Shown here: positions 10,421-44,700 of the stretch, one piece after another
Layout of the letters: the number at the start of each line of letters is the position of its first letter
How positions within the stretch are numbered: the stretch's first letter is position 1
Assembly (NCBI GenBank): GCA_026120035.1
Contig: JALRME010000016.1
Coordinates: 62,001-126,000 of the forward strand
Direction of reading: 5' to 3'
DNA: 64,000 nucleotides
DNA from: Coleophoma eucalyptorum
Taxonomy: Eukaryota > Ascomycota > Leotiomycetes > Helotiales > Dermateaceae
The notes under the pieces: generated by a model
Told to the model about the DNA's origin: nothing
Seen by the model: the letters and a program-made list of their open reading frames with translations, nothing else
Databases searched by the model: none
Made by a program: the position numbers and the translations under genes

Positions 10421-10788
10421 ATTAAGCTACTGTTCTTTTCAATTGCGAATATAAATATATATAAAATGTGTAAAGATAAAAACTTCGGTCAACGTCAGGA
10501 CAGAGAGGCGGGCTACTAAATTAATAAAGGTTCTTTACTCTAGTATAACTTTGCAACAACCCACCATAATTGTCTAGACTAACTCAAATGGAAGAGAATA
10601 TCTAAAAGGCTATCTAAGCAAAAGAATAAAGACTATGTACAGGCCATTCCCAGAATATATAGTAGTGCTATTAAGCTTAGCTGTGCCACCCTGGCCATGC
10701 ACGCTACTTTCCACGCCTATCCACATAACTACGACTGTCCGTGAATCGTAGGAATAGTAGATGCGTTTCTAATCGTCTACCGAACATC
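10421..10788. other. intergenic region between convergent genes
   Basis: AT-rich spacer where the protease and permease transcripts meet; should contain both 3' ends. No gene seen. Confidence 0.4.
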
Positions 10789-12594: not shown

Positions 12595-13376
12595 TGTCAG
12601 TTGTTGTTGGGTACAATGCAATTCGATGAACCCTGAAGCGTTTGTATAACGATGCGGACGAAGTCACGCTGCGGGGGACCAATGGCGCTAGGGTGGGGCA
12701 TTATGGTGAAAGTCATAGCGCTGACAAACCACGCCGGTTTCGACATTTCGGCTACCAACCTCTCCTTTTCAGCCATGTTACCTGCTTAGGTATGGATCTA
12801 AATGGCCTGGAAAGGCAAAATGCAGACCCAATCCGCCGTGTAATAATAGAGCGTGGGCTTCCATATGGAGGTAGCAAAGACGTGATACTTCAAAAATAAT
12901 TCGATATCCCTTGACCAATATCTCTGACTAGGAAAGTCATAAACTTTTTGGATATATCCGGGGTCTTCATGTTGTAATGATATGTAACCATATATTTTAG
13001 ACTGTTTCTTAAACGGTTCATTGGAAGTCGTCTGCAACCACTCAGTTAATACTTGAATACCAACTGGTTCGATCTCTAACTAATGCTAATAATAGTCATC
13101 ATGCAACTCATCTGCCTGAAATCGATTTGTATGGTTTTGTCACCCCTCCCCCTAAAACTTCAAACTAGAATTATGACCAATCAAGAGTATTGGGTGACTT
13201 GATCTCATTTACAAAGCTGTAGCCAGAAAGAATGTTCTCTACAATCTCTTTCGAGAAGATATTTAGATTAAAATTTGTAATTTTAGTAGTAGTCGTCTGT
13301 CAATGTAAAAAATACTCCTGTTTGCTCTTTCGGCGAAGCGGAATGATTAACAAAAATAAGATTACAAGGCGGCTAA
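12595..13376. other. intergenic, no gene seen
   Basis: Upstream of the permease and downstream of the dead methyltransferase. Two 80-codon ORFs have no recognisable content. AT-rich from about 12,900 onward. Confidence 0.35.
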
Positions 13377-20582: not shown

Positions 20583-22442
20583 CTACAAAAGCCCTTGTAT
20601 CTCAAAGGAGTCCGCTACCGACTCTATCTTAGCCTTCTCGCAGCACCGGGCTGGTATGAGGAAAAGCGCAACACACCCGGAGAGTGACACCAAACTGAGA
20701 GTCCACCACGGCAGAATGGCATTTCCGACGCTCGAGCTGACACTATATATGTACCCACTTGAGATTGGTCCTAGTGTTCGGAATGCTGACGATACGACCA
20801 TTCCTATCGCGTGGATGGTGCTCAATTTCGAAGGGTGGGGTACGCAGCTGTTAAGTAGAACTATGGCCGCGGGAATGGAGAAGACGCGCCCAGTGACTTG
20901 TAACAGAAGGACCACGGTGATTCCAACCCATAAAGTTGCAGGTTGATGGTTTGCAGCCGAAACTGTTGGGGCTGAGAAAAGAGCGAGAATAGGAGCTAAG
21001 GCATATGCTATAGGAGCAAGAATAGAAGACCACTGGTAGCATTTGACAGAGCCGAACCGAATGGTCATTCGCGAGTAAAGGGTTATTTGTCCGATAAGTC
21101 CGATCCCACCTATCATTGCGATCACGAAGCCTACACTGCTGCTCGATAATCCCAGGCCCGCTACTTTGCGAGATTTAGTCGTCTGCGCCTGAGCATTGTC
21201 GGTGGCGGGTGATGGTGTCGATAAGAAGACTGGCCAGAGATGGTTGAATGCTCTATCCAAATTTAATTATGCTACAATTCAACTTGATTCCAGTTTCATC
21301 CCAGACTTACGCGATATGAAAATCTAAGCTGGCTTGTGCTGCAAGTACCAAGACCATCCGCTTAGTCCAGATTCCGAAGCGCGTGGATGCATTTTCTTCT
21401 CCAATCTTCATGGTATTGAAGACATATGCCTGATTGGCACTGGTCAAGACATCAGGAATTCCTCTATCCAAAGACTGTTCTTTGTTCAAGGTCTTCGTTG
21501 TGTTAACTTGGCCTACTCCCTAGGATGGACTCGGCTCACCTCTCGAAGCCCAAACAAGACACAAAAACCAGCCGCCATAAGTAACCCGGCACTCAGGAAG
21601 TTTGGCATCGAAAAGGGAAATTGCGTAAAGAATGCAAATCCCAGATTGTTTTGCATCAAATTGTCGAGGTGCTGGAGGTGCTCACCCGTTCTTGCTATGT
21701 TCATGGATCTGCTCCCGATGACTACTCTCTCATATTGTTGTCAGCCAGTATTCAATAGCAAAGCAGGAGATTAGGGATAGAACCTGGTCCAATGAGAGCT
21801 GCGGAGTTTTGGGCAAGTGTCAACAGAAGGAATGCATGAGGTTGTAGCCTGAAAACAGTCAATAACTTCTCTCCAAGTCCTAGATCTGTGTCAATTCACT
21901 CCTCTTCTTGCACGAGTTCTGCAAGCACGACAGTTCTATAGAATAAAATTGAGCAAAGACTTCAAGTATAGCTGGAAGGGCGACAGTGCCGACAGGAATA
22001 CTTACACGATGGTACCTGTTGCGTTCATAGTTCCTGCCAAGATTCTCCAGCATGCTATCTGCCCAAAAGATTTGGATAAGCCAATTCCCACACAACTCAC
22101 ACAATTGCCGAAAAGACCAATCCACAAGGAATTTTTGCGCCCAAACAGTTTACTATCAGCGAGTCGTGCCCAGATCAAAGCTGTAAGTGCTTGTGCTGCT
22201 GCAAAAATGCCCAATACCCATCCTATTTTAGTGGAAATAGTTGTATCTGGGCTCTCAGGCTGAAAGGATTGCAATTGATAATAGATGTACGTTTGTAAAG
22301 AGGTGTTTTGGAAGACGTCAGCGAAACGAGCGAAGAACAATATTGCAAGCTGCTTTTTATTTGGTAGGGACTTCCATCTGGCTGTCTTGCTCTCTGCAAA
22401 CTGAGCTTTCGAAAAATGCATCTTTGCTAAAAGTCGCTGCAT
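20583..22442 (-). CDS. major facilitator superfamily transporter
   Basis: Plasma-membrane or vacuolar drug:H+ antiporter-like carrier. Six exons on the minus strand: 22006-22442, 21900-21935, 21784-21848, 21540-21724, 21311-21492, 20583-21252; total 524 residues with all phases agreeing. The N-terminal half has the MFS motif A region ARLADSKLFGRKNSL after helix 2 and GIGLSKSFGQIACWRILAG in helix 4. The C-terminal half carries HLWPVFLSTP and six more helices. The pattern fits the fungal ZIF1-like/multidrug MFS group. It is divergent from the M1 aminopeptidase, with about 530 bases between the starts, and lies next to the UstYa-type cluster, so it could export that product (inference). One exon is only 36 nt long. 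Confidence 0.88.
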
Positions 22443-22973: not shown

Positions 22974-25900
22974 ATGGATCGTGATACCCTTCCTACGACG
23001 TAAGCTAGAGCAGAAGCTTGAAGTCCACCGTGTAGCTCTAACGCATCTCTTACAGTTTCAAGCCCTCAAACTACCATCTTGCTATTGATGGCATCACCTT
23101 CTCCCCAACCTGGACCTATGAAGGTCTCGTTACCATCTCAGGCTCAGTAGAAGCTGCAAAGGAGATTGTCATCAATGCACACCAGCTCAAGATTTACGAA
23201 GCTCAGATCAAGACCGAGGGGACAATGAAGTCGGCCAATGTCCAGTACCAAGAGGAGCAGCAGCGAGCAAAGCTGGTGTTTGATGAGGGCTTTCCTTCAA
23301 GCCAGAACGCCGAGCTCATCATTCGATTCCAAGGATTAATCAACGACGTAAGCCTCACCTCCTTCCAAGATACACTGCGACATACGCTAATCTACAACTA
23401 CAGGAGATGGCGGGATTCTCGCGGTCAAAGTACAAGCCCGCCGCCCCACCAGCTCCCTCAGTCGCGCATCACGCCGACGCTGAGCATCACTACATGTTCT
23501 CCACCCAATTCCAGCCTTGCGATGCCCGTCGCGCATTTCCTTGCTTCGATGAGCCGGCAATGAAAGCTTCGTTCGAGCTCTCCATCGAGATTCCCGACGA
23601 TCAGATAGCTCTTTGCAACACACCCGAGAAGGAGACGACAGCTTCGCCGCGCCCCGCAGGCTCGAAAGACTACAAGTGGAAAGTCATCAAGTTTGAGAAA
23701 AGCCCGGTCATGAGCACGTACCTTTTCACATGGGCATTTGGTGACTTTGGGTACGTCGAAGCAGAGACGGAGAGAAGGTACAATGGGAAACGGCTGCCAG
23801 TCAGGGTATACACAACGAAAGGCCTGGAACAGCAAGGACGATATGCTCTTGAGCATGCGTGGAAGATCATAGATCTGCTCTCCGAGGTAAGCACATCTGG
23901 CCAGGTTCTGCAAGATCATGACGCTAATCATCTATGCAGATATTCCAAATCGTATTTTCGTCTCCTCCTCGTGCACATGAAGCATGTCTAACAAGCTCGT
24001 CAGGATTACCCTCTACCCAAGTGTGACTTGCTGGCTGTTCATGACTTTGTAAGTGACTTGTCTGCTCTGTTGGTGGTTGCGAACACCCAAGATCTATTCT
24101 AATTTGTTCCTCAGGCTACTGGTGCCATGGAAGGGTGAGTACTGACACTCCTCGGCCTGCGGTGCCTTGTCTCTGGTCGAATCTATCAGCTTGGTCATTG
24201 TCTTCTGGAACTCTGTCTTTTGAAAGGGAGATATGCGCTAACTGGTACTGATTATAAGGTGGGGATTGGTTACTTATCAGTGAGCATCCCACTCCGCACA
24301 TTCAGTAGCACAAGCTAACCTTCTCAGAACTATCGCGGTGCTCTTCGATGAGAAGAACTCGGATCTGCGATTTCGAAAACGCATTGCAGATGTGGTCGGT
24401 CACGAGCTTGCTCATCAATGGGTATGTACTTCTTGTTTTTCCAACTGTCGTACCATACGCCTGAACAATAGCGTTGTTTGATGCAAATTCCGGGCTGTGT
24501 TAGAGACCGATGTGCTACGTAAATGATGGACATATGCTGACCTTACGACTCGCGGTAGTTTGGAAACCTAGTAACGATGAATTGGTAAGTACCATTCGAT
24601 CAATGCCATCCTTCAAGGGGACTTGTTCACTTGGCATCTACCGACTCTACGGAGCCTGTGGCAGCTCAATTAGCCATGTCCATATCACCCTTTCAAAACA
24701 GCGGCTGATTTGTATTGTTTGAGAAAGGTGGGATGAGCTGTGGTTGAATGAAGGTATCTTTTTAATGATGCAAGCCTGCTTTCTATACTGACCTGGCTGA
24801 ATGCAGGATTTGCCACTTGGGTTGGCTGTTACGTCACTGATAGACTCCATCCAGGTAGGAAGCTCTTTCCACAAGTCATCTCAAAACGTGTGAGTGCTTC
24901 AAAGCTCTGCTAATGTTAGTAGAATGGTCTGTATGGGCACAGTTCGTCGTACGTACCGGCTCAAAGGCATCCACTTCGATTTTCACTGAATAGTCTAGGC
25001 CGAATCCATGTCTGAGGCCTTCAACCTGGACTCCATTCGTAACTCACACCCCATAGAGGTCCCGGTTCAGAGTGCTCTGGAAGTTGCTCAGATTTTTGAT
25101 GCCATCTCCTACCTCAAGGGTTCCTCGGTCATTCGCATGCTCAGTGCCCATTTAAGCGATAAAGTCTTCCTCCAAGGAGTCGCGAACTACCTCAAGAAAC
25201 ACGCTTACGGCAATGCGAAGACTGATGATTTGTGGTCGGCCTTGAGTGAGGCTTCGGGACAAGAAATCAATCAAATGATGGACCATTGGATAAAAAGAAT
25301 TGGACTGCCGGTCGTGACGGTGGCAGAGGAGCCTGGTCAAATTACTTTGCGCCAATCTCGCTTCTTGCTCTCTGGCGACGTCAAGTCAGAGGAAGATCAA
25401 ACGATCTGGACAATTCCTCTAGCACTTGAGACTAGCCCCCAAGCCAGCAAAACCAGCATTCTGACTGTCAAGGAAGACACCATTTACAACGTGAATGGCT
25501 CTTTCTACAAGATTAACAAGGATAATATAGGCTTCTATCGTACAAACTACCCGCCGGAGCGACTGTCGAAACTCGGATCTCCAAAATCTAGGGCAAGACT
25601 CAGTACTGAGGACAAAATTGGTCTTGTTAGTGACGCCGCTGCTCTTGCTAACTCAGGTTACAGTACTACGCCTGCTCTGCTTGCGTTGATCGAAGGTTTC
25701 GGAGAAGAGGACAACTATTTGGCCTGGAGCTCGGTCATGACTGCGCTGAGCCGAGTTCGCTCCGTCTTTTCCGATGATAGAACAAGTGATGGCTTGACGG
25801 CTTTCACGTTGAAGCTCATCACACCTGCGGTAGAGAGGATAGGCTGGAAATTCAACCCAGAGGAAGACCTCTTACAAGGGCAGCTGCGTGCACTTTTGAT

Positions 25901-26522
25901 CGAATCAGCTGGCCTGGCTGGTCATCAACCAACCATCAAGGAAGCTCTTTCGCGATTCGAGAGATATACTGGAGGTGACATGTCCGCAATTCATCCTAGT
26001 CTTCGCAGCGCCGTATTCCGCATTGCAGTCAAGACCCAGGGCAAGCCAGCATTTGACGCATTGCAGAAGGAATTCTTGACAAGCAAAACGTTTGACGGAG
26101 CTCTATGCGCCCTCGCAGCCATGGGCCACATTCCAACAACCGATCTTGCTCACGAGTACCTTCAATTCGCCTTCGACGGCAAGGTCAAGTCCCAAGACGT
26201 ATACCAAGTAGTAGCATCTCTTGCAGCGAATTTCACGGTCAATATCGAAGTATGGAACTACATCAAAGAGCACTATGATAAACTATACAAGCTCTTGTCT
26301 TGTAACATGGGCGTCTTCGACCGCTTCCTACGCATCGGGTTGGCCAAATACTCGAGCAAGAAGGTTCACGACGACATCAAGGACTTCTTTGCCGACAAGG
26401 ATTGCAAGGGTTTCGATCGAGGTATCGGAGTGGTGCTCGATCAGATCGCAAACGCGAGCGCATACAAGGAGAGAGACTCCAAGGCTCTGGAGGAGTGGTT
26501 GGAAGCACATAGCTACTTGTGA
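22974..26522 (+). CDS. M1-family zinc aminopeptidase (Ape2/Aap1-like)
   Basis: Removes N-terminal residues from peptides; likely cytosolic because there is no signal peptide. Thirteen exons: 22974-22999, 23056-23347, 23404-23886, 23940-23951, 24004-24048, 24115-24134, 24259-24279, 24328-24421, 24559-24584, 24728-24753, 24807-24854, 24923-24948, 24999-26522. Together they give 880 residues, as expected for the family. Zinc ligands sit exactly right: HELAH at 325-329 and the third ligand Glu348 in LNEGFA, 18 residues later. The catalytic Tyr is in ISYLKGSS, and the ERAP1-like C-terminal domain ends at LEAHSYL. Two oddities: exon 4 is a 12-nt micro-exon (residues IFQI), and the exopeptidase motif GAMEN reads GAMEG. 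It shares a promoter region with the MFS gene and lies beside the RiPP-like cluster, so a peptide-trimming role is possible but unproven. Confidence 0.93.
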
Positions 26523-27040
26523 CTACGACAAGGTAACGACGGGTTAATAGCTAGGAACGGGACAGGAATTCGTCGTTAAGATTAGCAGCAGAGGCCAAAA
26601 AACAGGGCTCTGGAAGTAAAGTTGAAGCATGATACCTGTCAACGTTATGCCGATTGAATAACCAATATAAACATATACCTGTCGGGTTGCGATATCATTT
26701 GCTGGAGTTTTCGTTCGCGAGAACGACTGGCCGAAAAACTCGGAGTCGAAGCATGAAGACGAGTGTGCACCCAGATTGGAGGTAAGGATATAGTTAGAGC
26801 TCGATGAAACTTACCAATGCCCATTGTCTCTGCTATGCATTTTGTGGTACAGGCGTATGGTTTTTCGCAGACCTTCCTCAAATCGCAAAATTCAGTAATG
26901 CAGAGTCAGCTCGTGTTGTTGTCCCCGCATCTGACAAACTCTCATGCCATTATCTATCACTCGCTTCTACATCTCTTTCCGATTGAGTATTTTGGCGTCT
27001 TGGGGAGGGGGTGCCTCGGTCTCGGTGCCTGCATGGGTAA

Positions 27041-27093
27041 TAGTGGGAGTTGGCCTTACCATATGGGTCCCTGCCGATACGGTGAGCAACCAA
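27041..27093. repeat. MITE terminal fragment (TAGTGGGAGTTGGC family)
   Basis: Contains TAGTGGGAGTTGGCCTTACC and then CTGCCGATACGGTGAG, that is, two opposed terminal sequences with almost no interior. The same terminal sequence bounds the element at 36666-36806. Confidence 0.6.
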
Positions 27094-27372: not shown

Positions 27373-28188
27373 TTATATGGGCATCTCTCCCCTCTCACAC
27401 GTGCTTGGTAGAGGCGGATCTTTCCAGCCGTTGCGAATATAAACTTCTTGCGCATCACAGGCCTGCTTAACAAGCTTCGAGGAATCTCGACATGTCCTTA
27501 CGGTGTTCATGCCTGTAATCTGCTTCGTCCGCGGAATTGTTGGTATTTCCCATTCTATCGTGTCATCGGCAGAGCAGCGCAGCGTCTATGAGATCAGAAC
27601 CTCGTCAGCTTCTCGAACAATGGCTTCAAATTCGCAGGAAAGCCCCAGTACCTGGTACATATAGTCAAGACAGTGTCGCGCGTGCGGAATCTCCTTCTCG
27701 CCGCGGCCTATATCTGACCCGTCTTGTTGCACTTGTAGTGCTTGTCGAAAAACAGCGAGACATTGCGCTTGGTGAAACCTGAGAGGACTGTCAACATCTG
27801 TAGACAGCTATGGGCAGAGAACGCACATGCTGATCATGCCTGCTGTATCTGGGTTCTCCTTGTATATCAATCCGAACCCTGTAATTGGTTCGAAATCATT
27901 CCACATGTAGTCGTACTCATGATCGAGGCTCATGTGGCTTGCGTTCTCCCCGAGATATGTCTTAGACACACTCCAGCCGTTGTTTTGCACTGGACATTGA
28001 CGACTTGCTCGTGACGTCGCAAACAGCAAGAGTAGCAGAAGAACAGAGATCAGTGTTGTCGAACTCAGCACAAGTAGTGTGAGGATGGACACAGAGATGC
28101 GTCTCTGAGATGAGTGAAACTGTTCATTCTCAGAGTCCTCGGCGGTAGGAGATTGGGTATCCTTTTGAGAAAGGATTTCGTAACTCAT
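27373..28188 (-). CDS. UstYa-type (DUF3328) oxidase-like protein 1
   Basis: Three exons on the minus strand, 27827-28188, 27652-27778 and 27373-27585, giving 233 residues. A polar N-terminus is followed by one strong membrane helix (about residues 34-60, SILTLLVLSSTTLISVLLLL) and an extracytoplasmic domain. UstYa-type proteins carry two HxxHC motifs, thought to bind metal, and work on RiPP precursor peptides in dikaritin pathways. Here the second motif is intact (HARHCLDYMY), but the first reads HQAQC with Gln for the second His. Spacing between the two and the DxxW-type region before them (YDYMWNDFEPITG) fit the family. It ends the left side of the precursor-centred group. The Gln change may alter or abolish activity. 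Confidence 0.85.
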
Positions 28189-28373
28189 TTTGAATTTCAG
28201 ATCGTAAAGGCCTCACAGTGCTCAGTTTGAATGAAGGAGGAATTGAGAGGAAGCAGAGAAAGAGGGGGATCGCAGACTATTTGGAAAAGTGAGCAACGCT
28301 ATTCCTTTTCTGCTCGTCATCAGCGAGAATACAGACACGATAGCATATAGATAATCACACCTGACGATTCATA

Positions 28374-28531
28374 CACTGTTACAAGGGTAATAATTGTTAT
28401 TATAGTTGTACAGGATTCACAGGATTCTACTATATGGTACGTAAGCTAGGGGTTTATCTAATAGTACAAGGGGTACTCCCTATGTCCTATTAACTAACTT
28501 GTGATAACAATTATCACCCCTGTAATAATAT
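28374..28531. repeat. MITE, ACACTG-TIR family, degenerate copy
   Basis: Starts ACACTGTTACAAGGGTAATA and ends with ACAATTATCACCCCTGTAAT; the two ends are near-perfect inverted repeats. The interior GTACAGGATTCACAGGATTC and CTAATAGTACAAGGGG match the copy at 28944-29090 in reverse orientation. Confidence 0.75.
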
Positions 28532-28943
28532 ATATAGTACCTACAGTCGCTAGTCTTGTTAAGTTTAGAGCTACGCGGCATGCGGCTAAAAGGAATACGA
28601 AGATGACAAGGTCTTGGCACAAGAGCGGTTATGATAAAGTGGGATTCTGTGCTCCTAAGCATAGCTAGCGGTAAGAGAGGCAGGGCACTGGGCAGGCATG
28701 ATATCATAATTACTCGCAATCACTCGTATTCCTTCGAACCTCTCTCAGCTAATATAAGGGTTAAGCTTTTTCTACTTTTTACAGTTCTTTTATAGGTTCT
28801 TCATACGACATGTAGTCAGACTATACGATCAACGGTGCTGCATGTAATATACTAATACATGGGTAATGATTATTATCACAGTCCTAGAGAATTTGCAGGA
28901 TTCTACTTAATCGGCTCGGGCTTTATCCAACTAATCTTCTATC

Positions 28944-29090
28944 ACACTGATACAAGGGAGATGATTGTGAACGGGTTAATTAATAGGGCTACCCCTTGTA
29001 CTATTAGATAAACACCTAGCTTATGTACTACGTAATAGAATCCTGTGAATCCTCTATAATTGTAAGCACTTATTACCCCTGTATCAGTGT
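28944..29090. repeat. MITE, ACACTG-TIR family, better preserved copy
   Basis: 147 bp bounded by the perfect 10-bp inverted repeat ACACTGATAC / GTATCAGTGT. The interior shares CTATTAGATAAACACCTAGC and AGAATCCTGTGAATCC with the inverted copy 400 bases to the left. No clear target duplication. Confidence 0.8.
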
Positions 29091-29773
29091 ACTCGTATAT
29101 GTCAGTCCTCAGCCGTGGCAGTCAGACCTTGAGAATATCCACCGGACATCGCTTCCGATCTGCAACTAATTGACAAGCGTGGAGTCTCATCAATTTACCT
29201 GATGGATAACGGTGGTGGTTGGTTTTTCCAAGTTGTTTGACCAAGCTTCACTACGTTAGCATCTTTATGAATCGGCTGTTCGAGGTCCTCAATAACACCG
29301 AGCGAGCCTCCGTGATGCATCTGACACAGTTCCAGGGTCAACAACCCTCATTCATCCTCTTGCTTCCACAGAAGATCGGCTTGGAACAGGAGCCTAATAT
29401 TCTTTCCACCAACAGGCTACTCTAGAGTCACATTGTCTCACAAGCCTGGCGAGAAATTCTTGACTCAAAGTCGGCTTGGCTGACCCAACTCTTTGCCATG
29501 CTAGCAGAGCTTAGCACAAGGAGTTTTTGGATTCAGCGTTGAGATTCGGCTGCATGCCCTAGTATCGAATTTTGGACAAGAAATCAGAAGTGAGAGCTCA
29601 TTGAGGAGCTAAAAGAAGTCGATTGAGTCTATACAAATAGGCGTTGCGGTGTAATAGTATAAGATCGGGAATTTGACACCTATTGCCCCAAGTATCAAGA
29701 TGCTGAATTATTGTTATGAAGCTACACATTCCCCACTTCGTGACACGGTTTCAATAACTTTACAGTCGATGGC

Positions 29774-30403
29774 CTAGCACGAATTCCATCCTATATCATA
29801 TATATCTCCCTTACCGCTAACTCGCGTGAGATTCTCTCCAAAACCAATGCGCGCCGCGTTCACCAGCACATCCAAACAATGCCTCGTGTGTTCATAACCC
29901 ATAGATTTCGCATCCGCAAGTTTGCCGGTTGTTGCTGCATCATGTACCCGCAATAGCATCCATTCGCAGTGGTACAAATGGGCCTCAGAGGTCGAGTAGT
30001 AATTGGACCCAGCCGGAAGAAATGATAATGCTTGGTAGCCCCCAAGCTCATGCAAACCGCTTGGGTCTGCCCAATATTGCCATGAACTATTACCAATCTC
30101 CTGAAACTCTTTTGCACCGTACAGTGAACACTTTGGATGCAGCCAGGTAAGACTGAGGGGATCCCATGTGCAGCCACGTTGATGAGCCTCGTCGAATGTT
30201 TCTCCGCAAGAGAATTGTTGAGACCTATGTTCTTCTTTTGCGTTTCCTTGTATTGCTTTGACCGAGGTCATGACGCCGAAAGTAGCCATGCTTGATAGAG
30301 CACTTGATAGTGTAGCTATGAGTACCGCTGCAATAAGTTCCCTTTTCCACGTCCAGCCACGTCCTTGCCGTTCTTCGTCGACGCTGGTATACTTGTAGTC
30401 CAT
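29774..30403 (-). CDS. UstYa-like single-pass membrane protein A
   Basis: Intronless, 209 residues. I use the ATG at 30403 rather than the ORF start at 30490 because the paralogue at 33396 begins at the matching place (MDYKYTSVDE here, MHYEYANIDD there). One membrane helix follows at about residues 23-46. The outer domain starts CGETFDEAHQRGCTWDPL and TWLHPKCSLYG and has both HxxHC motifs intact: HLYHC (in YHCEWMLLRVH) and HTRHC (in YEHTRHCLDVL). This is the UstYa double motif in a shorter, cysteine-bearing variant. It is transcribed in the same direction as the precursor gene 1.2 kb away. I infer a role in modifying the precursor peptide in the secretory pathway. Confidence 0.75.
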   Translation of the reverse strand: MDYKYTSVDEERQGRGWTWKRELIAAVLIATLSSALSSMATFGVMTSVKAIQGNAKEEHRSQQFSCGETFDEAHQRGCTWDPLSLTWLHPKCSLYGAKEFQEIGNSSWQYWADPSGLHELGGYQALSFLPAGSNYYSTSEAHLYHCEWMLLRVHDAATTGKLADAKSMGYEHTRHCLDVLVNAARIGFGENLTRVSGKGDIYDIGWNSC

Positions 30404-31626
30404 AGGTGCGAATTTGAGGTGCGAATTAGAGGGGTTCCAGTGTTGTTGCCAGATTCTGGGAGCCGACAGTCTAATAAGAGTGTGCTTCACTCAATCGAAA
30501 GGCTCATCTGACACCAGGGGGTCAAGGCTAGCATCTAGTAACGTACTACCTACCATGATGCTGGCTGGCTGCTGACTCTCGAAACCAATCTAATGCCGCC
30601 TACGCCTCAATCGACTTCACGTACTGTGACCTTTTTCCGAAAACCTTGCAAGAGCATGACGAGCCAAGCTTCGGGTATTGACAATGCATTAGCTCGAGAT
30701 TCCACAGCTCGCTCTAGGCAGCCATCCCACTTTGGGGGCTACGCCGCGACATGACAGCAGTCTCTGGATATGAGTCGAACGAAGATCTTTTCTTCTGCAT
30801 GATGACCTTGGCTACAGGATCAGACCATACTTCGTACAGGATGTAAATAGCTAAGGTTTACCGTCAAAAGGGGAGAAAATAAAGGATTTATTTGTGAAAA
30901 CTTTATTCTAAAGTATACTGATGTTACTCTCGATTGCATAGTGCTATCTAAGAGGTCTAGGAATTGATTATATATATATAAATTCATGAGTTAATTTAAG
31001 GCATATCTAACCGATGTCTTACTATATTTCTAGTAAATGGAGGCTACTTCGTATACAATATACTAGGGTGGAGAATAAAATAAGCATTCCTTCATTGATC
31101 TGACTTGCATTAGCGTAAGATTAAGAGACGTTGGTAATAATCCGCTGGTGTCGCGTGTATTTATTTAGCGGGGTCATTTTATACGAATTGTGAGACCTAA
31201 GCGAATTACGGAAGGCCGCTTTGACAGTAAAACTTATATATTTTCTTATTGGACAGCACGACGTCGGACGACCAGCATGATCTGCAGACACAGCAGCCAA
31301 CCGGAAGCTTTTTCAGGAACAGAATCGAGTACCCCCTGAATACCACACCGTCGGCAGGCATGAGAGGCGTTCCAGTACCGTGATGGGCATGCCTTAATTC
31401 GACCACATGTCATGATTTAGCTCGGGTTCAGGCATTCATTAAAGGCAAGTTAGTTCTACGAAATTGTATTCTTCGCTACTACACTACGGACACAACGGAC
31501 ACGAAGCTACCGTTCATACAAAATTCGTAGAGATCCGCACTCTGCCACTTCCAATCACCTCCGACAATCCTGCCCCTGCTATACCTCACTTCGCCTATAG
31601 CGGTTCTATTATGACTTAACCACAAA
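30404..31626. other. intergenic, no gene seen
   Basis: Between two minus-strand genes. It must hold the promoter of the UstYa-like gene and the 3' end of the precursor gene. One 66-codon ORF without features. Confidence 0.35.
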
Positions 31627-32235
31627 TTAGCTTATGTACTCCAACAAGGACGGCCTGGTACCAAATACATCGCGCTTTTTGTAGGCTTGCGTTCCCATCT
31701 GAGCGGGCTCGGCCTCGCGTTTGTAGGCTTGCGTTCCCATCTGAGCGGGCTCGGCCTCGCGTTTGTAGGCTTGCGTTCCCATCTGAGCAGGCTCAGCCTC
31801 GCGTTTGTAGGCTTGCGTGCCCATCTGAGCGGGCTCGGCCTCGCGTTTGTAGGCTTGCGTGCCCATCTGAGCAGGCTCAGCCTCGCGTTTGTAGGCTTGC
31901 GTGCCCATCTGAGCAGGCTCAGCCTCGCGTTTGTAGGCTTGCGTGCCCATCTGAGCAGGCTCGGCCTCGCGTTTGTAGGCTTGCGTGCCCATCTGAGCGG
32001 GCTCGGCCTCGCGTTTGTAGGCTTGCGTTCCCATCTGAGCAGGCTCAGCCTCGCGTTTGTAGGCTTGCGTTCCCATCTGAGCAGGCTCAGCCTCGCGTTT
32101 GTAGGCTTGCGTTCCCATCTGAGCGGGCTCGGCCTCGCGTTTGTAGGCTTGCGTTCCCATCTGAGCAGGCTCGGCTGCTGGCGCCGCAACGACCAGAGCG
32201 ATGAGAGTAGCGAGAGCTGCAAGCGTGATCTTCAT
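31627..32235 (-). CDS. Kex2-processed repeat precursor, probable RiPP (dikaritin-type) precursor peptide
   Basis: 202 residues, no intron needed. Signal peptide at residues 1-18 (MKITLAALATLIALVVAA). Then 12 identical copies of the 14-residue unit EAEPAQMGTQAYKR (the last ends in KKR) and a 14-residue tail after the final KR. Each unit ends in KR, the Kex2 site, and begins with EA and EP pairs, as dipeptidyl-aminopeptidase trimming sites do in alpha-factor-like precursors. Kex2 cleavage would release a dodecapeptide; trimming of EA/EP could leave a shorter core ending in GTQAY. Dikaritin precursors have this layout with an aromatic residue in each core, here one Tyr. The five UstYa-type neighbours support that reading. 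An alpha-pheromone is less likely because no PGQP-like core is present. The product is unknown. Confidence 0.88.
   Translation of the reverse strand: MKITLAALATLIALVVAAPAAEPAQMGTQAYKREAEPAQMGTQAYKREAEPAQMGTQAYKREAEPAQMGTQAYKREAEPAQMGTQAYKREAEPAQMGTQAYKREAEPAQMGTQAYKREAEPAQMGTQAYKREAEPAQMGTQAYKREAEPAQMGTQAYKREAEPAQMGTQAYKREAEPAQMGTQAYKKRDVFGTRPSLLEYIS
31678..32175. repeat. 42-bp tandem repeat array inside the precursor gene
   Basis: Twelve units, each encoding the same peptide. Nucleotide differences are synonymous and occur at only a few sites (for example GCGGGCTCGG versus GCAGGCTCAG, and CGTTCCC versus CGTGCCC), which gives mosaic unit types. Confidence 0.95.
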
Positions 32236-33395
32236 GTTGCCTGCTAGAGGTAAGGATGGGCTTGAAGAAAGAAGATGTAAAAGATGATGTGAAAGATGAT
32301 ATTGAAGATGATGTTAAAGATGGTATGTGTGACGAAGAGAAGAAAAAACTGGTCTCGCGCGGACCTCAAGTACTTATGTCTAGGTCGTTATGGATGCCAT
32401 TAGGAATTTAAGCATCTGCGCGAACCAGATTAGCCGGAAGACAACGAGGAGTCGTAAGCCGTACCTTCAAGAAGCCGCACCTTAAAGCAGCAGCTTTGTG
32501 TGGACTGCTAGCTTCCAGCTCCTCTTGAACCGTCTGACTACATTGGCGTCACTTCGACTTGAATAACGTGAAGCGATGTTGTGGTCGGGGGTCGGGTCGA
32601 CGATGCCCACTGTAGCTAAGGGGGCGTAAGCTTACTCGGCTAAGTCCTCTGCTGAGTCTAGCAAAACCGTTGTTAACGTCGTATCTCGCTGACCGCTCTA
32701 ATTTAGCCCTTAGAATACATCCAATTGTACATGAGTTGATACCTTGTATCTAGGCAACTCAGTGGCACAGCGATATGTCTTATATATATTGTATAGTAAT
32801 GCATAGTACCTAGCAGATATGCAAATGCACCTGCTTGCTTTTTAAGGAAAAACGGCTCTATATTATGTTCTAATGTATTACTAGGTACACCTACCTACTA
32901 AAGCTTGTCGCCCGTTCGATGAACAGCCTTAATTACCTTAGAATATGTCCAATTGTACATGAGTTGGTACCTCGTATCTAGGCAACTCAGTGGCACAGCG
33001 ATGCATCTTATCTATATTGTATAGTAATGCATAGTACCTAGCAGATATGCTAATGCACCTGCTTGCTTTTTAAGGAAAAACGACTCTATATTATGTTCTA
33101 ATATATTACTAGGTACACCTACCTATCAAAGCAGCGAACAGCACCTTGGTTCGCTAGGCATATAAATAATAACCGCTCTGATTTAGGAGTTATATCCTCT
33201 TTCAGCCTGATCGTCTTAGTCATCCCTCCACCTTCATCATAATGTCCACAACCTCTCCTACACTTTGTACTTTGCATTTTGGTCATTCCAATCTCAGATA
33301 AGCCATTCAGAGAGACATCCACGCACTTTTCCATCCAAATGCCTTCTTCACCTACTGAGAGCACCATAGATCTTTTAGAGCCATCTTGTCGAGCT
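32236..33395. other. divergent intergenic region between precursor and UstYa-like protein B
   Basis: 1.16 kb between divergent genes, so it holds both promoters. Just upstream of the precursor start is a purine-rich GATGATGTGAAAGATGAT-type microrepeat (32,275-32,335). Its centre is taken up by the direct duplication at 32705-33133. No gene seen. Confidence 0.45.
32705..33133. repeat. direct duplication, two copies of about 197 bp
   Basis: 32705-32902 and 32937-33133 are about 90% identical, offset by 232 bases. They share CCAATTGTACATGAGTTG, ATCTAGGCAACTCAGTGGCA, GTAATGCATAGTACCTAGCA and TTGCTTTTTAAGGAAAAACG. Differences are mostly transitions. No terminal inverted repeats or coding frame. 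Confidence 0.85.
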
Positions 33396-34001
33396 ATGCA
33401 CTACGAGTACGCCAACATCGACGATCCAAAGCGAGCGCGGTGGCGGCAGTGGAGATGGAATATCACCTCAGCGATACTCATTGCAATTCTGTCGAGTATA
33501 GCAACATTCGGCATCACATCACTGCTATCGCATAGAGGCCTGGAAACTCAACCCGTCAGTTGTGGGAAGACATTCAAAGAGGCACACGATCATGGTTGCA
33601 CGTTTGATCCCCTCACGCTCACCTGGCTGCGTCCTGAATGTTCGCTGCATGGTCAAAAAGAGTTCCTAGAGTCCGCCGGCAGTGAGACGTGGCGATATTG
33701 GGAGAACAAGGACGGTAGTTTGGTCGAACTCGGAGGCTATGAATCACTTGTCCACCTTCCGCCTGGTTCTCTCTATTTGGCAACGTACGAGCAGTATCTG
33801 AGCCATTGTATGTGGATACTTTTACGAGCGCACCACGCGCTCGAATATGGGGAGCGCCTGGATTTCAGGACGATATCGTATGAACACTCAAAAGATTGTC
33901 TGGGCCTATTGTTGAAGGAGGCAAAGCGTGGTGTCGGAGAGAATCTCACACAAATTAGCACCCGTGCAGAGGCACCAGAAATAGGCTATGGTGTGTGCTA
34001 G
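33396..34001 (+). CDS. UstYa-like single-pass membrane protein B (paralogue of A, motifs altered)
   Basis: 201 residues from the ATG at 33396, chosen by alignment with paralogue A; longer starts at 33279 or 33339 are possible. One membrane helix (ITSAILIAILSSIATFGITS) and an outer domain closely similar to A: CGKTFKEAHDHGCTFDPLTL, TWLRPECSLHG, GGYESL. Both positions equivalent to HxxHC are changed: YLSHC in place of HLYHC, and HSKDC in place of HTRHC. If the motifs bind metal as in UstYa proteins, this copy may be inactive or may act as a partner subunit. The open frame itself is intact, which argues for a retained function. It is divergent from the precursor gene. Confidence 0.72.
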   Translation: MHYEYANIDDPKRARWRQWRWNITSAILIAILSSIATFGITSLLSHRGLETQPVSCGKTFKEAHDHGCTFDPLTLTWLRPECSLHGQKEFLESAGSETWRYWENKDGSLVELGGYESLVHLPPGSLYLATYEQYLSHCMWILLRAHHALEYGERLDFRTISYEHSKDCLGLLLKEAKRGVGENLTQISTRAEAPEIGYGVC

Positions 34002-34798
34002 ACCATTAATTGTATAGCTCTCAATTTACGAAATCTGAACAATTCTCAGTCTCTCTCTCACAGGCCAGCTCGTAAAAGCTATCATGCGTCACGACTCCCG
34101 CTAATATACGCTTACTCATTGATGACGATGTTGAGAGGGTAGGGATCCAACGAAAAAGAAAAGGGCACAGAAGTGGGGTGTCGTGATCAATTCGTGTAAA
34201 AAGTGGGAGTAATTAGTTGTAAAAGTCAAGTGCGTGGCACGGAAAAATAAGCTACTTCTAAAGGGTTAGGGTTAGGCTCGCCAACAACGATAGCGCAACG
34301 AGGGTAGCACTTAGAGGATGCTGCTGAGGTTTCCGCTTACTTTGCGATAGATCTTCCGCCAAGACAATGGGCGCGCTCGCTGATGCTGATACTAGCGCTA
34401 TACAGTACCTAAAAGCAGCCAGATATAGAGGCAGGCAGAGGGGCCAAAATCTGTACTTCAATGATATCCTGGTTTTCTGTGTCTAAGGATCAATTATATT
34501 GCTTACGCCCCACTCTATTACACCGCAAGTATTACGACTTCAGTCGATCAGGAAAAGCATCTGCCTGCTGGCTTGGGCCTTTTCCCTGTTCGGTTGAAAA
34601 TAGATCCTTCGTGTACTTGCTTGCACGAGGCTGAATTCGAGATTACGTCCGTCCTGCCTGCGCATACCGTCGGTCGATAGCGACTGTACCCTTCGTCAGC
34701 TCTCGAAGTTTGCGTCCTTAAGCCAGCCGAAACATACAGTGTTGAATTTATGTCTGATCAAAGACGAATCTCTTATAGCCTCAACAGCTGTGTTAACC
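34002..34798. other. intergenic, no gene seen
   Basis: Between two plus-strand cluster genes. Only a 67-codon antisense ORF without features. Confidence 0.35.
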
Positions 34799-35937
34799 AT
34801 GGAGAAGCTTCCATCATACACCATTCCGGCTTCAAAATGGAGATCAAAGTACGCGGAACTTGCTCAATCTAGCGACAATGAGCATGATGTCTGTCCTAGC
34901 TGCAGTCATTTACAGAACAGAGCACATTCAAGCAGCAAAAGATCATGGCTGGCTCTATGGACAATTGCTACCGTCCTCTTTGGCGTCTTGATAGTCTCTA
35001 TCCTGCTCCTGGCGAAGCAGTATACATTTCATTGCTCATGCGTGGGCGAGTCTTCTTGTCCCAGTTCCACTAGTCTACTGTCTGACCAGGCCTTCCCTCA
35101 CAGTGCGTTAAAGTCAGCAGAAGATATCGTGAATAGACATGACTGACATATTCGTAGTTCCCCTACGCCGAGTTGTTTGGAAGGAGGAGAAAGAGTTTGT
35201 CGATGCAGATCCGACAGATGGACAACATTGGGGAAATCCTGGCGACGAACCAGATCCCAAAGCGTGGACGGCGTGGGACGATATTTATGACGGTGAGCTA
35301 CTTTTGATCTTGACTCAAAGCAAGAAGCGTTTCGAATGCTGATGTCAATCTCCAAACAGGCTCATGGGTTTTGGTCGAGCCCGACGAGACGCTGGACATT
35401 CCCCCAGGCGTGCCAATCCAGAACTTCTCTGTGGAAGGAGGAGGCTCGTGGAGAACACCTAAGCACGGCTATTCTCCCTCCATCAATCACCAAATCCACT
35501 GTTTGGTGAGTTGTTCGCCAGCAAGACACCGAGGCGCAAAGAGTCTGACATTCAGTCACAGGGATGGATGAAGCACTATCTCATGCCTAGCAGGACCCAA
35601 GACATAGATTATGAGCATGCAAGTCACTGCGTCGAGTACATTCGTCATGTAGGACAATCCCAAGCTTGCTCTACTGCTTTATCAGCTGACCCGTAGCTAG
35701 GCCATCATGTGTCAAGGCGACCTGACCCTCGAGCAGCCCGAAAATCCCACCAGGTGGCATGTTGAATCTATAGCATATGATGAGACAGTGCATGTCTGTC
35801 GAGACTGGACGGCCCTGTCGAGTGCTCTCCGGGCAACGTCTTTGGGCTTTGAGTACGCTGAAGACCGCTCACTCCTACCCTTTGACAATTCCGATTGGCA
35901 GCCCGTGCGGCCGGTAGTTCCATTTGAAGCTATCTAG
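34799..35937 (+). CDS. UstYa-type (DUF3328) oxidase-like protein 2
   Basis: Five exons, 34799-35102, 35158-35292, 35360-35505, 35562-35648, 35701-35937, giving 302 residues with all phases consistent. The start at 34799 has a good ACCATGG context; the first exon's end at a GTGCGT donor was chosen because it alone keeps frame into RRVVWKEEKEF. One membrane helix (WTIATVLFGVLIVSILLL), then the canonical domain order: VVWKEEKEF, WTAWDDIYDG, NHQIHCL (first HxxHC), YEHASHCVEYIR (second HxxHC) and C-terminal CQGDLTLEQP. Both motifs are intact. Of the five relatives here this is the most typical UstYa protein, so it is the best candidate for the peptide-cyclising oxidase. Transcribed in line with paralogue B and protein C. 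Confidence 0.87.
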
Positions 35938-36050
35938 ATCACTTTTTGGGATCAGATCATTGATCAGGAGGGAAAGCCAAGATAATAATTGGTGAAGCCC
36001 AATGCACTGAACAAACGAGATGTCATTTCGGATTTAGAATCGTATATACT

Positions 36051-36458
36051 TTAGTCACCTTCAGCGAGGCTATCTAGAAAGCAGTGAATGAGAAATTTGT
36101 TAGGAGCAATCAGCAAAGTACTGTAGCGGCATGGTGTAACTATTTGCTTTACTGTCATCCTTCGCCAGAGGCATTCTCTGTCGCACACGTTGTGCACATA
36201 AGCATCAACTGAGCCGAGCACAAATTTCAAATCAGCTTGCCAATACGTTCTGAATAGGGAAGGCAACTTTGGCAATGCATGTCCGTCCACCTGAAGTTTG
36301 CTTATGGACCGCCTGTATCTATTCTGATAGCGATCATGCAACTCAAGCGAGCGACGTGACAAGTCGTTCTCTGGGCCAGGTTCAGCCGTAAGCTGGCGTG
36401 TTCTCCAAATCCCTTCCTTATCCGGTTGTCTCGGCTCATGACGTTGGCTGTCCTCCAA
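36051..36458 (-). CDS. unrecognised ORF, about 135 codons
   Basis: Open frame rich in charged residues (HEPRQPDKEGIWRTRQL, then RYQNRYRRSISKLQVDG, FRTYWQADLKFVLGS). It has no ATG at its start; the open frame continues upstream (YIKPGLKILEDSQ), so it would need another exon. No domain, signal peptide or membrane helix recognised. It may be a gene fragment or chance. Confidence 0.2.
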   Translation of the reverse strand: MEDSQRHEPRQPDKEGIWRTRQLTAEPGPENDLSRRSLELHDRYQNRYRRSISKLQVDGHALPKLPSLFRTYWQADLKFVLGSVDAYVHNVCDRECLWRRMTVKQIVTPCRYSTLLIAPNKFLIHCFLDSLAEGD

Positions 36459-36665
36459 AATCTTTAGACCTGGCTTGATATACGTAAGTAACGGTCTTGA
36501 ATACCGTACCGTAAATCGCAGGGGCTAGGTGCATTAGTTTGCGGCCAGGGACCCCCTGTAGATGTCATCAGCTAGATCTATAGCAGGCATGCTGTGCCCT
36601 CGCTCTAGTATTTACAAGTTGCAGCAATACGTAAAACACATCATGCATCGTTGGGTTTGTGGCAA

Positions 36666-36806
36666 TAGTGGGAGTTGGCGTTATCGCATAGGTCATGGAT
36701 GCATTGCAGATACGAGCAGTGTTGTGTGAGGTAAGTCTTACCTACCGGTTTGATATTGGATTCAAGGCTGTTGGTCCCTGCCCATACGGTGAGGCCAACT
36801 CCACTA
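36666..36806. repeat. MITE with TAGTGG-AGTTGGC terminal inverted repeats
   Basis: 141 bp bounded by TAGTGGGAGTTGGC and GCCAACTCCACTA, with imperfect inverted ends and TA at both edges. The ends match the fragment at 27041-27093. It lies just upstream of protein C and contains an in-frame ATG (36750) that should not be taken as that gene's start. Confidence 0.7.
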
Positions 36807-36878
36807 TTAGATTTCATCCGCCTTTCTCATAAGTGCTGTACTTCTTCTGTCGAACTTCAGCAGTTACACCACGATAAC

Positions 36879-37736
36879 ATGGCTATACTCTCGAATCCCT
36901 TTCGGTTTGGAAACCGTGCCTCTCAAACAATTATTTTATCGTCCGACAAGGACGGCGGCCCTGACGGCCATGATCGTAAAGCTTTGCTCGCCGGCGAGGA
37001 GGACGACTACGGAAGTGAAAGTGAAAGTGTTCCTTCGTATCGATCTACAACAAAGCACTGGCGTGTGATCAGTTTGTATGGCCTCGGCACCGCTTCTGCT
37101 CTCCTCATTGGGCTTCTCACATTGTGTTTCTTCTGGCACATAACCGTGCACAAATCTAAGTCGGCATCACACGAAATGCAACCATCCAGCATCATGACGT
37201 CGCCATTACATGAAACGCAACCATCCAGCATAATACCAGCAGAGATATTAAACGCCCTGGATGATGCCGAGGAATTAGAATCAGATTTTGATGAGAACAT
37301 ATTTGCAGACTGGCAAGACTGTGGTTCTAGTGTGGAAGAAGCCCGCGCAAAGGGATGCTTCTTCGACGTCATGCTCCACTCATGGATCAACCAAGAGTGC
37401 GCTGACAAGGAACTCATGGACGAATACCTCAACAAAGTACCCTATCACTGGTATCGAGACTGGAATTCCAAAGAAGAAATCACAGTTGATGAAATGAGAC
37501 TCGGCGAGCACGGGGTTGCTGCGGTGAAGCTGGAAGAACACGGCACACACTGCGCCTACGTGTTGGAGAAAAATATGAGGGCTCTCATGAATGGCAAGCC
37601 TCTTGCGCGCTCGATCTATTCCGTCAAGCATGCGGTGCACTGCCTCGGGCTTATAGTTGATCCCAGTACTATCCCAGGCGACTTCACTACTGTTGTCGTA
37701 GAATTTGATCAATGCGGCATTCCACATTTTGACTAA
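36879..37736 (+). CDS. UstYa-like single-pass membrane protein C
   Basis: 285 residues, no intron. The ATG at 36879 is preferred because the longer frame begins inside a MITE. A polar, acidic cytoplasmic head (ALLAGEEDDYGSESES) leads to a membrane helix (GLGTASALLIGLLTLCFFW), a stalk with two copies of a HEMQPSSI/HETQPSSI unit, and an outer domain of the A/B type: CGSSVEEARAKGCFFDVMLH, SWINQEC, then HGTHC and HAVHC, both intact HxxHC motifs. It is more distant from A and B than those are from each other. As the rightmost member, it closes the group centred on the repeat precursor. Role in peptide modification is inferred from motif and place. Confidence 0.75.
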   Translation: MAILSNPFRFGNRASQTIILSSDKDGGPDGHDRKALLAGEEDDYGSESESVPSYRSTTKHWRVISLYGLGTASALLIGLLTLCFFWHITVHKSKSASHEMQPSSIMTSPLHETQPSSIIPAEILNALDDAEELESDFDENIFADWQDCGSSVEEARAKGCFFDVMLHSWINQECADKELMDEYLNKVPYHWYRDWNSKEEITVDEMRLGEHGVAAVKLEEHGTHCAYVLEKNMRALMNGKPLARSIYSVKHAVHCLGLIVDPSTIPGDFTTVVVEFDQCGIPHFD

Positions 37737-41770: not shown

Positions 41771-44700
41771 ATGGTGTGCCAGTTAATATCAAGCCAGGAC
41801 TTATGGCATAAGGCCCACAACTCACTAAGTCCACAACTCCAAGCCAGTTTAGATCTGGTGAAGACTGGCAAACGCGATATCTTGGCGGCAGTCCTGAAAG
41901 CGGCGGAAGAGAAGAGACAAATCTGTCTTTTGAAACGGTGGAAATTCAAAAATTCAAAAGGCGAAGAGGTTATTGTCCGCGATGTTTTGGAGAAAATCGC
42001 TGGATGGATCAAGAAGTTTAAAGAAGTCGGTGATACCATCGTTCAATATGACCCTACCTATGCCGCGCTACCATGGGCAGGTGTACGTTTTCTGCTCCAG
42101 ACAAGTGTAAATGACGTGCAAACTTTTGGAGCAATGGTCTTCGATCTAGAGGTTTTGGCTTGTCTTCTTACTCGCTATAGAGCGTTTGAGCATCTCCATC
42201 TGAACCATCAGTCCATGGTGAAAGTGGATTTGGAACAAGCTTTGACTCGCCTGTATGCAAACGTACTGGTATTTTTAGCCAAGGCCGTACAATACTTTCA
42301 AGAATCAACCGCCAGCAAGTACAGCATGTATCCCTGGATTTCAGAATACTGATTTCTACAGCCCGCCTTGGGAAGAGTGTATTTCACACGGCGAACGAAC
42401 AGCTCCTAGAGAAGATTCTAGCCCAAGAGACAGAGATTCTAAAATTTGCTGATCTGGTTGACACCGAAAGACTCCTTGTCCCGGAAACCGCAATGATACG
42501 CTTGGCAGATCAGACACTTATATCTGAAAGGGCTTTGGAGGAGTCTCAGTATCTTGAAATGCTTCGCTGGACATCTTCGACCCCATTCTTCCGACACCAT
42601 GATTACAATTCTGAAAAAAGACTCCCAGGGACGGGGATGTGGCTTCTAAACCACGCAAAGTATAAGGAATGGATGTGGTCGAGCTCATCTTCTATTCTGC
42701 TTCTCAGCGGAATTCCTGGCTCCGGTAAAACAAAATTGTGTTCCGTTGTGGTGGACAAATTTCTCACCGAGGCTTCTACCTACGATCTTAAGGCTCCGTT
42801 AGCGTACTTTTACTGCACGGACTCCCAGTCTGAGCCAGAAAGATCTTCTCCAGATGGAATCTTGCGAAGTATTGTTAGGCAGTTAACGATAACAGCTGGA
42901 CCCAATCCAAAAGTTTGTGACATTCTTCTGGATGACTTTGAACGGAGGAAAGCCTTAGCCAGAATAGATGGGTTTGAGTTAGATAGATTGGGGATACATG
43001 AGTGCGTACAGCTTATCTTGAAGATTGTAGGGACAAATCCAGCGAACATTGTCATTGACGCAATTGATGAAGTCAGTGAATCTCGGATCCACGAACTAAT
43101 CGAGGCTTTGAATCAGATCGTGGCAGACTCTACAAATGTTGTCAAAGTCTTCTTAACTAGTCGAGATGATAGTTACATCTTCGGACTCCTGCCTAAAGTA
43201 GCGGAAATTCGCATTACTAGTGGAGTTAACAGAGATGATATGGTAGCTTTCGCACAACGTCAACTAGAAGAGATAAAACTGGAAGAACGTTTACAGAACA
43301 AGGATGAGCTATTAGGTCTAAAAGAAGAATTGGTATCCATGCTCCTCGAAAGAGCGGGTGAGATGTCAGTGGTTATAGTAGCATTGGCCTCTCGCTGACT
43401 TCAAGCAACAGGTTTCTGTGGGTCGATTTACAGATCCATCGCTTTCGTGGTATGAGATATAAGCAGGATATTATCAACGCCATAAGAGATTCTTCAATCG
43501 CCATGATGGACCCGAAGTTGGACCAACTATTTGCTGGAAGTTTTGGATGCATCTTAGAAGCCGAGCCAATGGCCCGTAGCATCGCGATTCGCACATTCTC
43601 CTGGCTTCTTTTTGGCAAAGAATCTCTATCGCCATCCGCCTTCATTTCTGCCGTCTCTTTACCGAACACTACGAGCGATCCTATTCACCTAGAGCTTTGC
43701 GAATTGATAAACATATGCCACAACCTGATCATTCTCGATTCGAAATCAAACGTTGTACGCTTTTCTCATCAGACTGTTCAGGAGTTTGCACGGAAGCAAG
43801 CAATTTTTGCAGCACCTGATGCTCACAGGGTTCTGGCTGAAAGTTGCCTGCATATATGTATGCTGGGCCCGACAGACAACGTCGAATCTGATCTGAGCAT
43901 AACAGATAATTTTTACAATTATGGCTCTACATACTGGGCAGATCATTATCAGAGTGTTGAGGCCACGTCCTCTGATTACATGAACACTGAGATATGCGAT
44001 CTGATGCTTCAGTTTATCTTTGAACATATCTTGTCATTTACTGGTTGGCTTGACAGGTGTCAGGATTTGGCAACAGCTCTTCCCAGAGACCACTACAAAA
44101 AGATAGCTTTAAGTGCACTTTCAAGCTCAGATTCGTCGCCGCTATTCACAGCTTGCGTCTTTGGCCTCAAAACACTGCTTAACCATATCATAATGACCAA
44201 AGAGATCGATTTGCAGCGAAAAAATGACCTTGGCTATACCGGACTGTATCTTGCAGCAGCAGCCGGCCATAGTGACATAGTTTGCATTCTCGCCGAAAAG
44301 GGTGCGGATGTGAACATGAGCTGCGGGAGGCATGGTAGCCCAATTAATGCGGCCTGTTATGGGGGTCATACTAGTGTTGTGCAAGTACTCATGGACCTTG
44401 GAGCTGAAACACGGTTTGACCATATTTCTCAAAATCCCCTTCAGGTTGCATTTGCTCGAAATCAAGAAGATGCTGCTATGCTTCTCCTTAATAGTGGAAC
44501 CGAGGATTTGGATCAGAATTCATACGACTTGGCCTTGTTGGGAGCCTCACGGGCTGGATTTCTTGAAGTAGTGGAACTGCTTCTCAAATCTAAGAATTCC
44601 TACATCAAAACAGCCGATCCGTCTCACAGTAGTAAGATAAAATCAGGAGTCACCGCTGCAATCAAAAATGGCCACACAAAAGTCCTTCAAACCTTCTTGA

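Follow-up and report, generated by a model that had tools for sequence, protein, structure and literature searches.

Dikaritins, also termed ust-RiPS, are fungal ribosomally synthesized and post-translationally modified peptides (RiPPs) such as ustiloxin, phomopsin and asperipin-2a. They have a secreted Kex2 repeat precursor with a tyrosine in each unit, and its gene neighbours genes for DUF3328/UstYa proteins, namely two for ustiloxin, five for phomopsin, and one for asperipin-2a (PMC7329392). In that survey, 22% of 7878 Kex2-processed repeat proteins (KEPs) lie near a DUF3328 gene, with an average of 1.7 such genes, and a tyrosine is found in the core of 65.6%, i.e., it is common, but not universal (PMC7329392). 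These numbers make a KEP with UstYa genes a known kind of cluster. DUF3328/UstYa proteins like CctR, ApnU, and AprY match the Pfam family PF11807 and combine a transmembrane (TM) anchor with the arrangement HxxHC(x)nHxxHC; DUF3328 is a binuclear copper enzyme, CctR carries two coppers per monomer of its dimer, and the exchange of its conserved His and Cys residues to Ala abolished activity (PMC12435403). A planar four-His site has been modelled for CctR, and ApnU and AprY were reported as refolded proteins (PMC12435403). The double HxxHC has served to recognise DUF3328 proteins of the dikaritin type (PMC12048977). Here we describe a gene block in a window of 64,000 nucleotides from Coleophoma eucalyptorum (contig JALRME010000016.1; G000:C9:62001-126000), the window being the whole stretch of DNA that was analysed. 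The block comprises one KEP gene and five flanking genes for membrane proteins, A, B, D, E, and F. It is probably a RiPP cluster of a dikaritin-like kind, whose UstYa oxidases (A and E), together with a UstYa-like companion family (B, D, and F), would modify peptides of the AQMGTQAY type. All genome-wide counts given below are drawn from this one genome (45.26 Mb, 101 contigs).

The repeat precursor and its flanking membrane proteins

The precursor gene (31627-32235, minus strand) encodes a protein of 202 amino acids with an N-terminal hydrophobic stretch at residues 3-21, a putative signal peptide. The protein contains 12 identical copies of EPAQMGTQAYK, encoded by a 42-bp unit, with one tyrosine in each unit and KR-EA between the units. 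The resulting spacer KR-EA-EP is present at all 11 internal junctions, and the last unit is followed by KKR and a tail of 14 residues. The DNA of the units varies at three sites, the third positions of a Pro, a Gly, and an Ala codon, and all variants are synonymous, as compared over 33 nt for 12 units and over 42 nt for 11 units. This fits a coding sequence that is held constant at the peptide level; three variable sites are a small number, however, and homogenisation of the repeat array by gene conversion is another possibility. A search of the genome with the precursor protein gave one match only, and all 11 matches of the repeat DNA pattern were at the precursor gene itself. The scan of the precursor against NCBIfam yielded no match near any cut-off. 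Between the precursor and gene D a tandem duplication with a period of 228 bp (93%) is located at 32708-33132.

Genes A and E encode the UstYa proteins of the block, and both lie within 5 kb of the precursor gene. They carry short introns of the fungal type, which were placed by inspection, and all six are of the GT-AG type. Gene A (27373-28188, minus strand) has three exons, separated by introns at 27826-27779 and 27651-27586, and its motifs read HQAQC and HARHC. Gene E (34799-35937, plus strand) has five exons (introns 35103-35157, 35293-35359, 35506-35561, and 35649-35700) and encodes a canonical UstYa protein with the motifs HQIHC and HASHC. After splicing, A matches PF11807 with 57.9 bits (E 1.7e-15) and E with 84.3 bits (E 1.5e-23), at a gathering cut-off of 25 bits. 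In both proteins a TM-like stretch is combined with the two-motif layout of CctR, ApnU, and AprY, which is complete in E but not in A. Genes B (29774-30403, minus strand), D (33339-34001, plus strand), and F (36879-37736, plus strand) are single open frames, and each of the proteins has one TM-like stretch. The motifs are HLYHC/HTRHC in B, HGTHC/HAVHC in F, and the degenerate YLSHC/HSKDC in D. Thus, both HxxHC motifs are intact in three of the five proteins (B, E, and F), one is intact in A, and none in D; the first motif of A lacks one His, and D lacks two of the four His residues. Searches of solved structures with E and D did not detect a relative (best E values 0.22 and 0.86, respectively).

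A preliminary description of this DNA had proposed a secreted Kex2-type repeat precursor at this position, flanked by five single-pass membrane proteins with HxxHC or near-HxxHC motifs, and both proposals are borne out by the present results. It had also taken all five proteins as UstYa-like oxidases. The layout of the motifs agrees with this assignment, but the UstYa profile assigns only A and E, after splicing, to the family, and B, D, and F form a family of their own.

A and D lack kinds of residues that are essential in CctR. If the same rule applies, they would be weakened or dead catalysts, while B, E, and F look catalytically competent. The arrangement of intact beside degenerate partners may suggest that the proteins form heterodimers. 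Two repeats were noted near these genes. An inverted repeat with arms of 76 nt (87% complementary, 514 nt apart) lies between A and B (28400-29065) and resembles a miniature inverted-repeat transposable element. A direct repeat of 34 nt (82%) is found at 27036-27069 and 36661-36694, with the two copies 9.6 kb apart, one beyond the 3' end of A and outside of the block, the other just upstream of F.

The companion family and its genomic neighbourhoods

B and D are 48% identical, and B, D, and F have no match near any cut-off in NCBIfam. The genome was searched with F, D, and B, and then with two of the members found outside of the window. The family has at least 16 genes, three in the window and 13 outside, which are distributed over contigs C90, C4, C16 (three), C7 (two), C26, C56 (three), C89, and C43. 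A weak match on C20 was dropped from the count, because its frame lacks HxxHC. Eleven of the 15 genes then known were aligned, without the partial frames, separate exons or frames with stops at C16:571k, C43, C4, and C16:622k, and one gene of C56 (at 33k) was found later. The aligned members have in common a CGxTxxEAxxxGCxFD block, a further Cys after it, and both HxxHC motifs. The first motif is a full HxxHC in nine of 11 members and the second in eight of the 10 that have this region, the exceptions being D and the C90 member in both cases; the C56:125k frame was trimmed before an unrelated end and has no second motif in the alignment. The block in front of the motifs distinguishes the family from UstYa, in whose alignment it is not conserved.

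No Pfam family other than PF11807 was matched, even weakly, by two or more of the 11 members, and the best match to any Pfam family was an isolated one (E 0.0075). For a more sensitive comparison, the family was aligned by hhalign with a profile of eight UstYa proteins of this genome (A, E, and six of 15 outside UstYa frames). The score was 36.7, and both HxxHC motifs were aligned in register. Permutation of the UstYa alignment by columns or by blocks of five columns gave a maximum of 25.1 in 400 controls, and the reversed alignment gave 15.6. The profile match supports a common plan of the two families and, weakly and short of a proof of homology, a common ancestry. No description of the companion family was found in the open-access literature searched. 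Fungal proteins with the CGxTxxEA...HxxHC pattern are presumably filed in PANTHER under PTHR35896 ('IG-like domain-containing protein'). This accession was not found in the open-access literature searched either, and PTHR35896 is not known to be linked to RiPPs.

The association of the companion family with UstYa-type pathways is supported by the co-location of the genes. The genome was searched for PF11807 without splicing, and this intron-blind search gave 47 matches, A and E being absent from its list. Nine of the 13 outside family genes have a PF11807 match at a distance of 5 kb or less, although the neighbourhoods of +-10 kb around the 47 matches comprise only 1.2% of the genome. Among the 12 outside members known earlier the number is eight, and the member found later (C56:32770-33420) is about 4 kb from a PF11807 match. 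The binomial probability of this co-location is 4e-15 by gene and 7e-10 by locus (six of 10 outside loci), under the assumption of random placement, and the value by gene treats members of one cluster as if they were independent, which they are not. Numerators and numbers of loci in the co-location statistics, including those for KEPs, were counted by hand.

KEPs adjoin family members at four of the 11 loci, including the window. On C7, at about 966 kb, a KEP with the 18-residue KR repeat AKSKRDPEFSNYGEYSVT is flanked by a PF11807 match on one side and a family member on the other; DP, which follows KR in this repeat, is also an XP dipeptide. On C56, at about 30 kb, a KEP has a start resembling a signal peptide, followed by units of GEQSVDPEGMFSTSVD(V or NA)KR, and in its neighbourhood are a PF11807 match (28.7 kb) and two family members (24.6-25.4 and 32.8-33.4 kb). 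The third KEP, on the same contig at about 126 kb, has a first exon encoding MKVSTLLMWLSLAAATLALPRAPG, a likely intron, and then 17 DILSQD units with KR or KKR spacers; the unit lacks an aromatic residue, and the signal peptide is in the separate exon (L041 2667-3234). It adjoins a family member, while the distance to the closest PF11807 match is 96 kb, and thus it is possible that it represents a UstYa-independent cluster. The scan for KEPs included 30 loci from the PF11807 search, leaving out 17 of the 47 matches that had no locus, and 15 others. In overlapping stretches of about 3 kb, four KEPs were found in 22 family stretches (59 kb unique sequence) versus none in 23 UstYa-only stretches (62 kb unique sequence). 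By locus, the numbers are four of 11 versus none of 15 (P 0.02), and the window KEP is not an independent find in this comparison, because its stretch entered the scan by way of the precursor. The enrichment of KEPs at family loci compared to UstYa-only loci is suggestive only.

Comparison with known systems and alternative explanations

Several features place the block beside the dikaritins: the Kex2 repeat precursor, the tyrosine in each unit, and the UstYa neighbours. The core is unlike the EDYXI motif of ustiloxins and phomopsins (PMC6339444), the KR-EA-EP spacer is of the STE13 type and not of the type of ustiloxin and phomopsin, and three companion genes are outside of PF11807. Ustiloxin and phomopsin have a tyrosinase partner, whereas no match to a tyrosinase was found among the open reading frames (ORFs) of the block that were scanned, in which spliced genes were not exhaustively modelled. 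The preliminary description had called the cluster dikaritin-type and had pointed out that no cytochrome P450, gamma-glutamyl transferase or S41 peptidase is inside the block. In agreement with the latter, no match to any of the three was found among the block ORFs scanned, which do not represent an exhaustive spliced annotation. The former stands as the best reading of a KEP with UstYa genes, with the qualification of the untypical spacer. The cluster is thus of a known kind, and what distinguishes it is a double-HxxHC family that is tied to UstYa and, less firmly, to KEPs, together with a pheromone-type spacer.

A pathway can be proposed when the Kex2/Kex1 and STE13 processing rules (PMC6339444) are applied to the precursor. 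The precursor would enter the secretory pathway, Kex2 and Kex1 would cleave the repeated units to give EAEPAQMGTQAY, and a dipeptidyl aminopeptidase of the STE13 type would trim EA and EP, leaving AQMGTQAY as the predicted exact core. In the lumen of the secretory pathway, the membrane-anchored E, as a putative copper oxidase and probably together with A, would oxidise or crosslink the peptide, most simply via its single tyrosine, and the product might be cyclic and have an activity. B and F may contribute to this modification, either as additional copper enzymes or as heterodimer partners, and D may be a partner that lacks a catalytic role or binds the substrate.

Several observations weigh against this pathway or against parts of it. 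B remains below the PF11807 cut-off (11.3 bits, E 0.31), and D and F have no PF11807 match; among the 11 aligned family members, PF11807 is weakly matched by just two, when E values up to 1 are considered (best E 0.14). The hhalign probability is just 49%, over 46 columns. AlphaFold2 gave a mean pLDDT (predicted local distance difference test) of 41.7 for B alone and of 44.5 for B with D and F, which is too poor for use; in both of these low-confidence models, the TM stretch is covered by a helix at the N terminus, and each motif by a further one. Four of the 13 outside members (C90, C4, C16:622k, and C56:125k) have no PF11807 match within 10 kb, and this absence is soft, because the search was intron-blind and had missed A and E as well. 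The 10-kb stretches retrieved at C16, C26, and C89 yielded no KEP, and neither did the loci of about 3 kb at C43, C90, C4, and C16:622k; with the window excluded the KEP contrast is weak (three of 10 versus none of 15 loci, P 0.05). In the six upstream regions of the block no 7- to 10-mer was present in more than four, and no clear common promoter motif was apparent; 11 8-mers were present in three of the six regions, compared to a mean of 3.9 in a crude shuffle, which is nothing clear. Lastly, PMC6339444 reports XA/XP spacers of the STE13 type as absent from the precursors of cyclic tetrapeptides (ustiloxin-type) and epichloecyclins.

This spacer is also the basis for an alternative explanation, i.e., that the precursor yields a linear signalling peptide resembling alpha pheromones, trimmed by STE13 at KR-EA-EP, while the neighbouring oxidases act on another substrate. 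Precursors of ascomycete alpha pheromones share with the window KEP the signal peptide and the Kex2 sites followed by XA/XP dipeptides, and such spacers have been described as generally dedicated to Ascomycota alpha pheromones (PMC6339444). In a genome search for KR-(E/D)A-(E/D)(A/P) the window KEP was the sole cluster and accounted for 11 of the 27 matches, the others being scattered, and the reversed control gave 17. Three pattern searches of the genome for another alpha-pheromone gene did not lead to a confirmed candidate, with inspection of the one cluster in the search that gave 26 matches. One of four pattern matches, on C90 and without in-frame stop, was rejected because its frame reads like a Zn2Cys6 protein, and a cluster on C10 from the search with 26 matches turned out to be a Pro/Gln-rich protein without KR spacers. 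However, AQMGTQAY has neither the two Cys residues nor the PYGxPxG core of two pheromone groups, which are dothideomycete groups and may not be from the class of the host (PMC6339444). The window KEP also differs from pheromone precursors in its location among UstYa genes. Of 227 yeast-type mating factors none was close to a DUF3328 gene, and of 216 fungal pheromones three were (PMC7329392), whereas A and E adjoin the window KEP; among 76 KEPs resembling putative basidiomycete pheromones the number was 17 (PMC7329392). Judged from these figures, DUF3328 genes and such spacers seldom occur together, although the combination is not without precedent, and we regard the pheromone explanation as unlikely.

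It could also be argued that the peptide of the block, taken as a RiPP cluster, is modified by A and E alone, and that B, D, and F are unrelated membrane proteins whose genes are found in secondary-metabolism neighbourhoods by chance or due to a common location. B, D, and F have no Pfam match above the cut-off, D has lost two of four His residues, and the 47 PF11807 matches may lie in cluster-rich regions, for which the binomial has no correction. Yet the co-location by locus has the low probability given above, KEPs adjoin four family loci, at C56 about 126 kb a KEP and a family member occur together with no PF11807 match within 96 kb, and the double HxxHC of the family aligns with that of UstYa at the profile level, so that an unrelated origin of these genes appears improbable. 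Still another function of the KEP is conceivable, namely that it yields structural peptides of the hyphal surface, similar to repellents, or effector-type peptides, and not a modified natural product. In the survey cited above, 78% of the KEPs have no DUF3328 gene nearby (PMC7329392), and most KEPs are without known function (PMC7329392; PMC9769878). In the window, PF11807 is represented by two genes and the companion family by three, all within about 6 kb, and this makes such a function very improbable here.

When the reading as a dikaritin-like cluster is extended, B, D, F, and their relatives could tentatively be viewed as a second family of copper peptide oxidases, a possibility that we entertain rather than favour. 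It would be a sister to DUF3328 that is missed by its Pfam model, it would mark RiPP clusters derived from KEPs as well as UstYa does, and it would be able to act without UstYa, as at C56 about 126 kb; the product of the window would be a crosslinked peptide from an STE13-trimmed precursor. The mining of fungal genomes for RiPPs leans on DUF3328/UstYa, and a companion family with double HxxHC would, if true, widen the search, provide more candidate copper enzymes for the crosslinking of peptides, and account for clusters that at present appear minimal. With intact (B, E, and F) beside ligand-losing (A and D) proteins in one block, the heterodimer hypothesis can be tested directly. In addition, the occurrence of a pheromone-type spacer together with UstYa genes is relevant to how processing is shared between cyclic and signalling peptides.

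Other genes and elements of the window

Upstream of the block lie two genes that are candidate members of the cluster only. One has several exons (23042-26522, plus strand) and encodes an M1 aminopeptidase with the domains Peptidase_M1, ERAP1_C, and Peptidase_M1_N. The other (20583-22442, minus strand) resembles genes for transporters of the major facilitator superfamily and possibly encodes an exporter; its frame at 22002-22442 matches MFS_1 (E 6.1e-10), and the frame at 20583-21266 has no Pfam match. X-Pro dipeptidyl-peptidases of family S15 take off XP dipeptides, and a gene of this family is present at 56244-58010 (minus strand), about 24 kb from the precursor. Genes for a cytochrome P450, a pro-kumamolisin-type peptidase, an amino acid permease, and an O-methyltransferase-like protein are found at 2457-14257, at least 13 kb from the block. 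At 42190-48776 (plus strand), a STAND (signal transduction ATPase with numerous domains) NTPase (NPHP3_N, AAA_22) is followed by a frame of 1804 codons, which is ankyrin-like as judged by eye, a combination that reads as a NOD-like receptor (NLR)-type protein.

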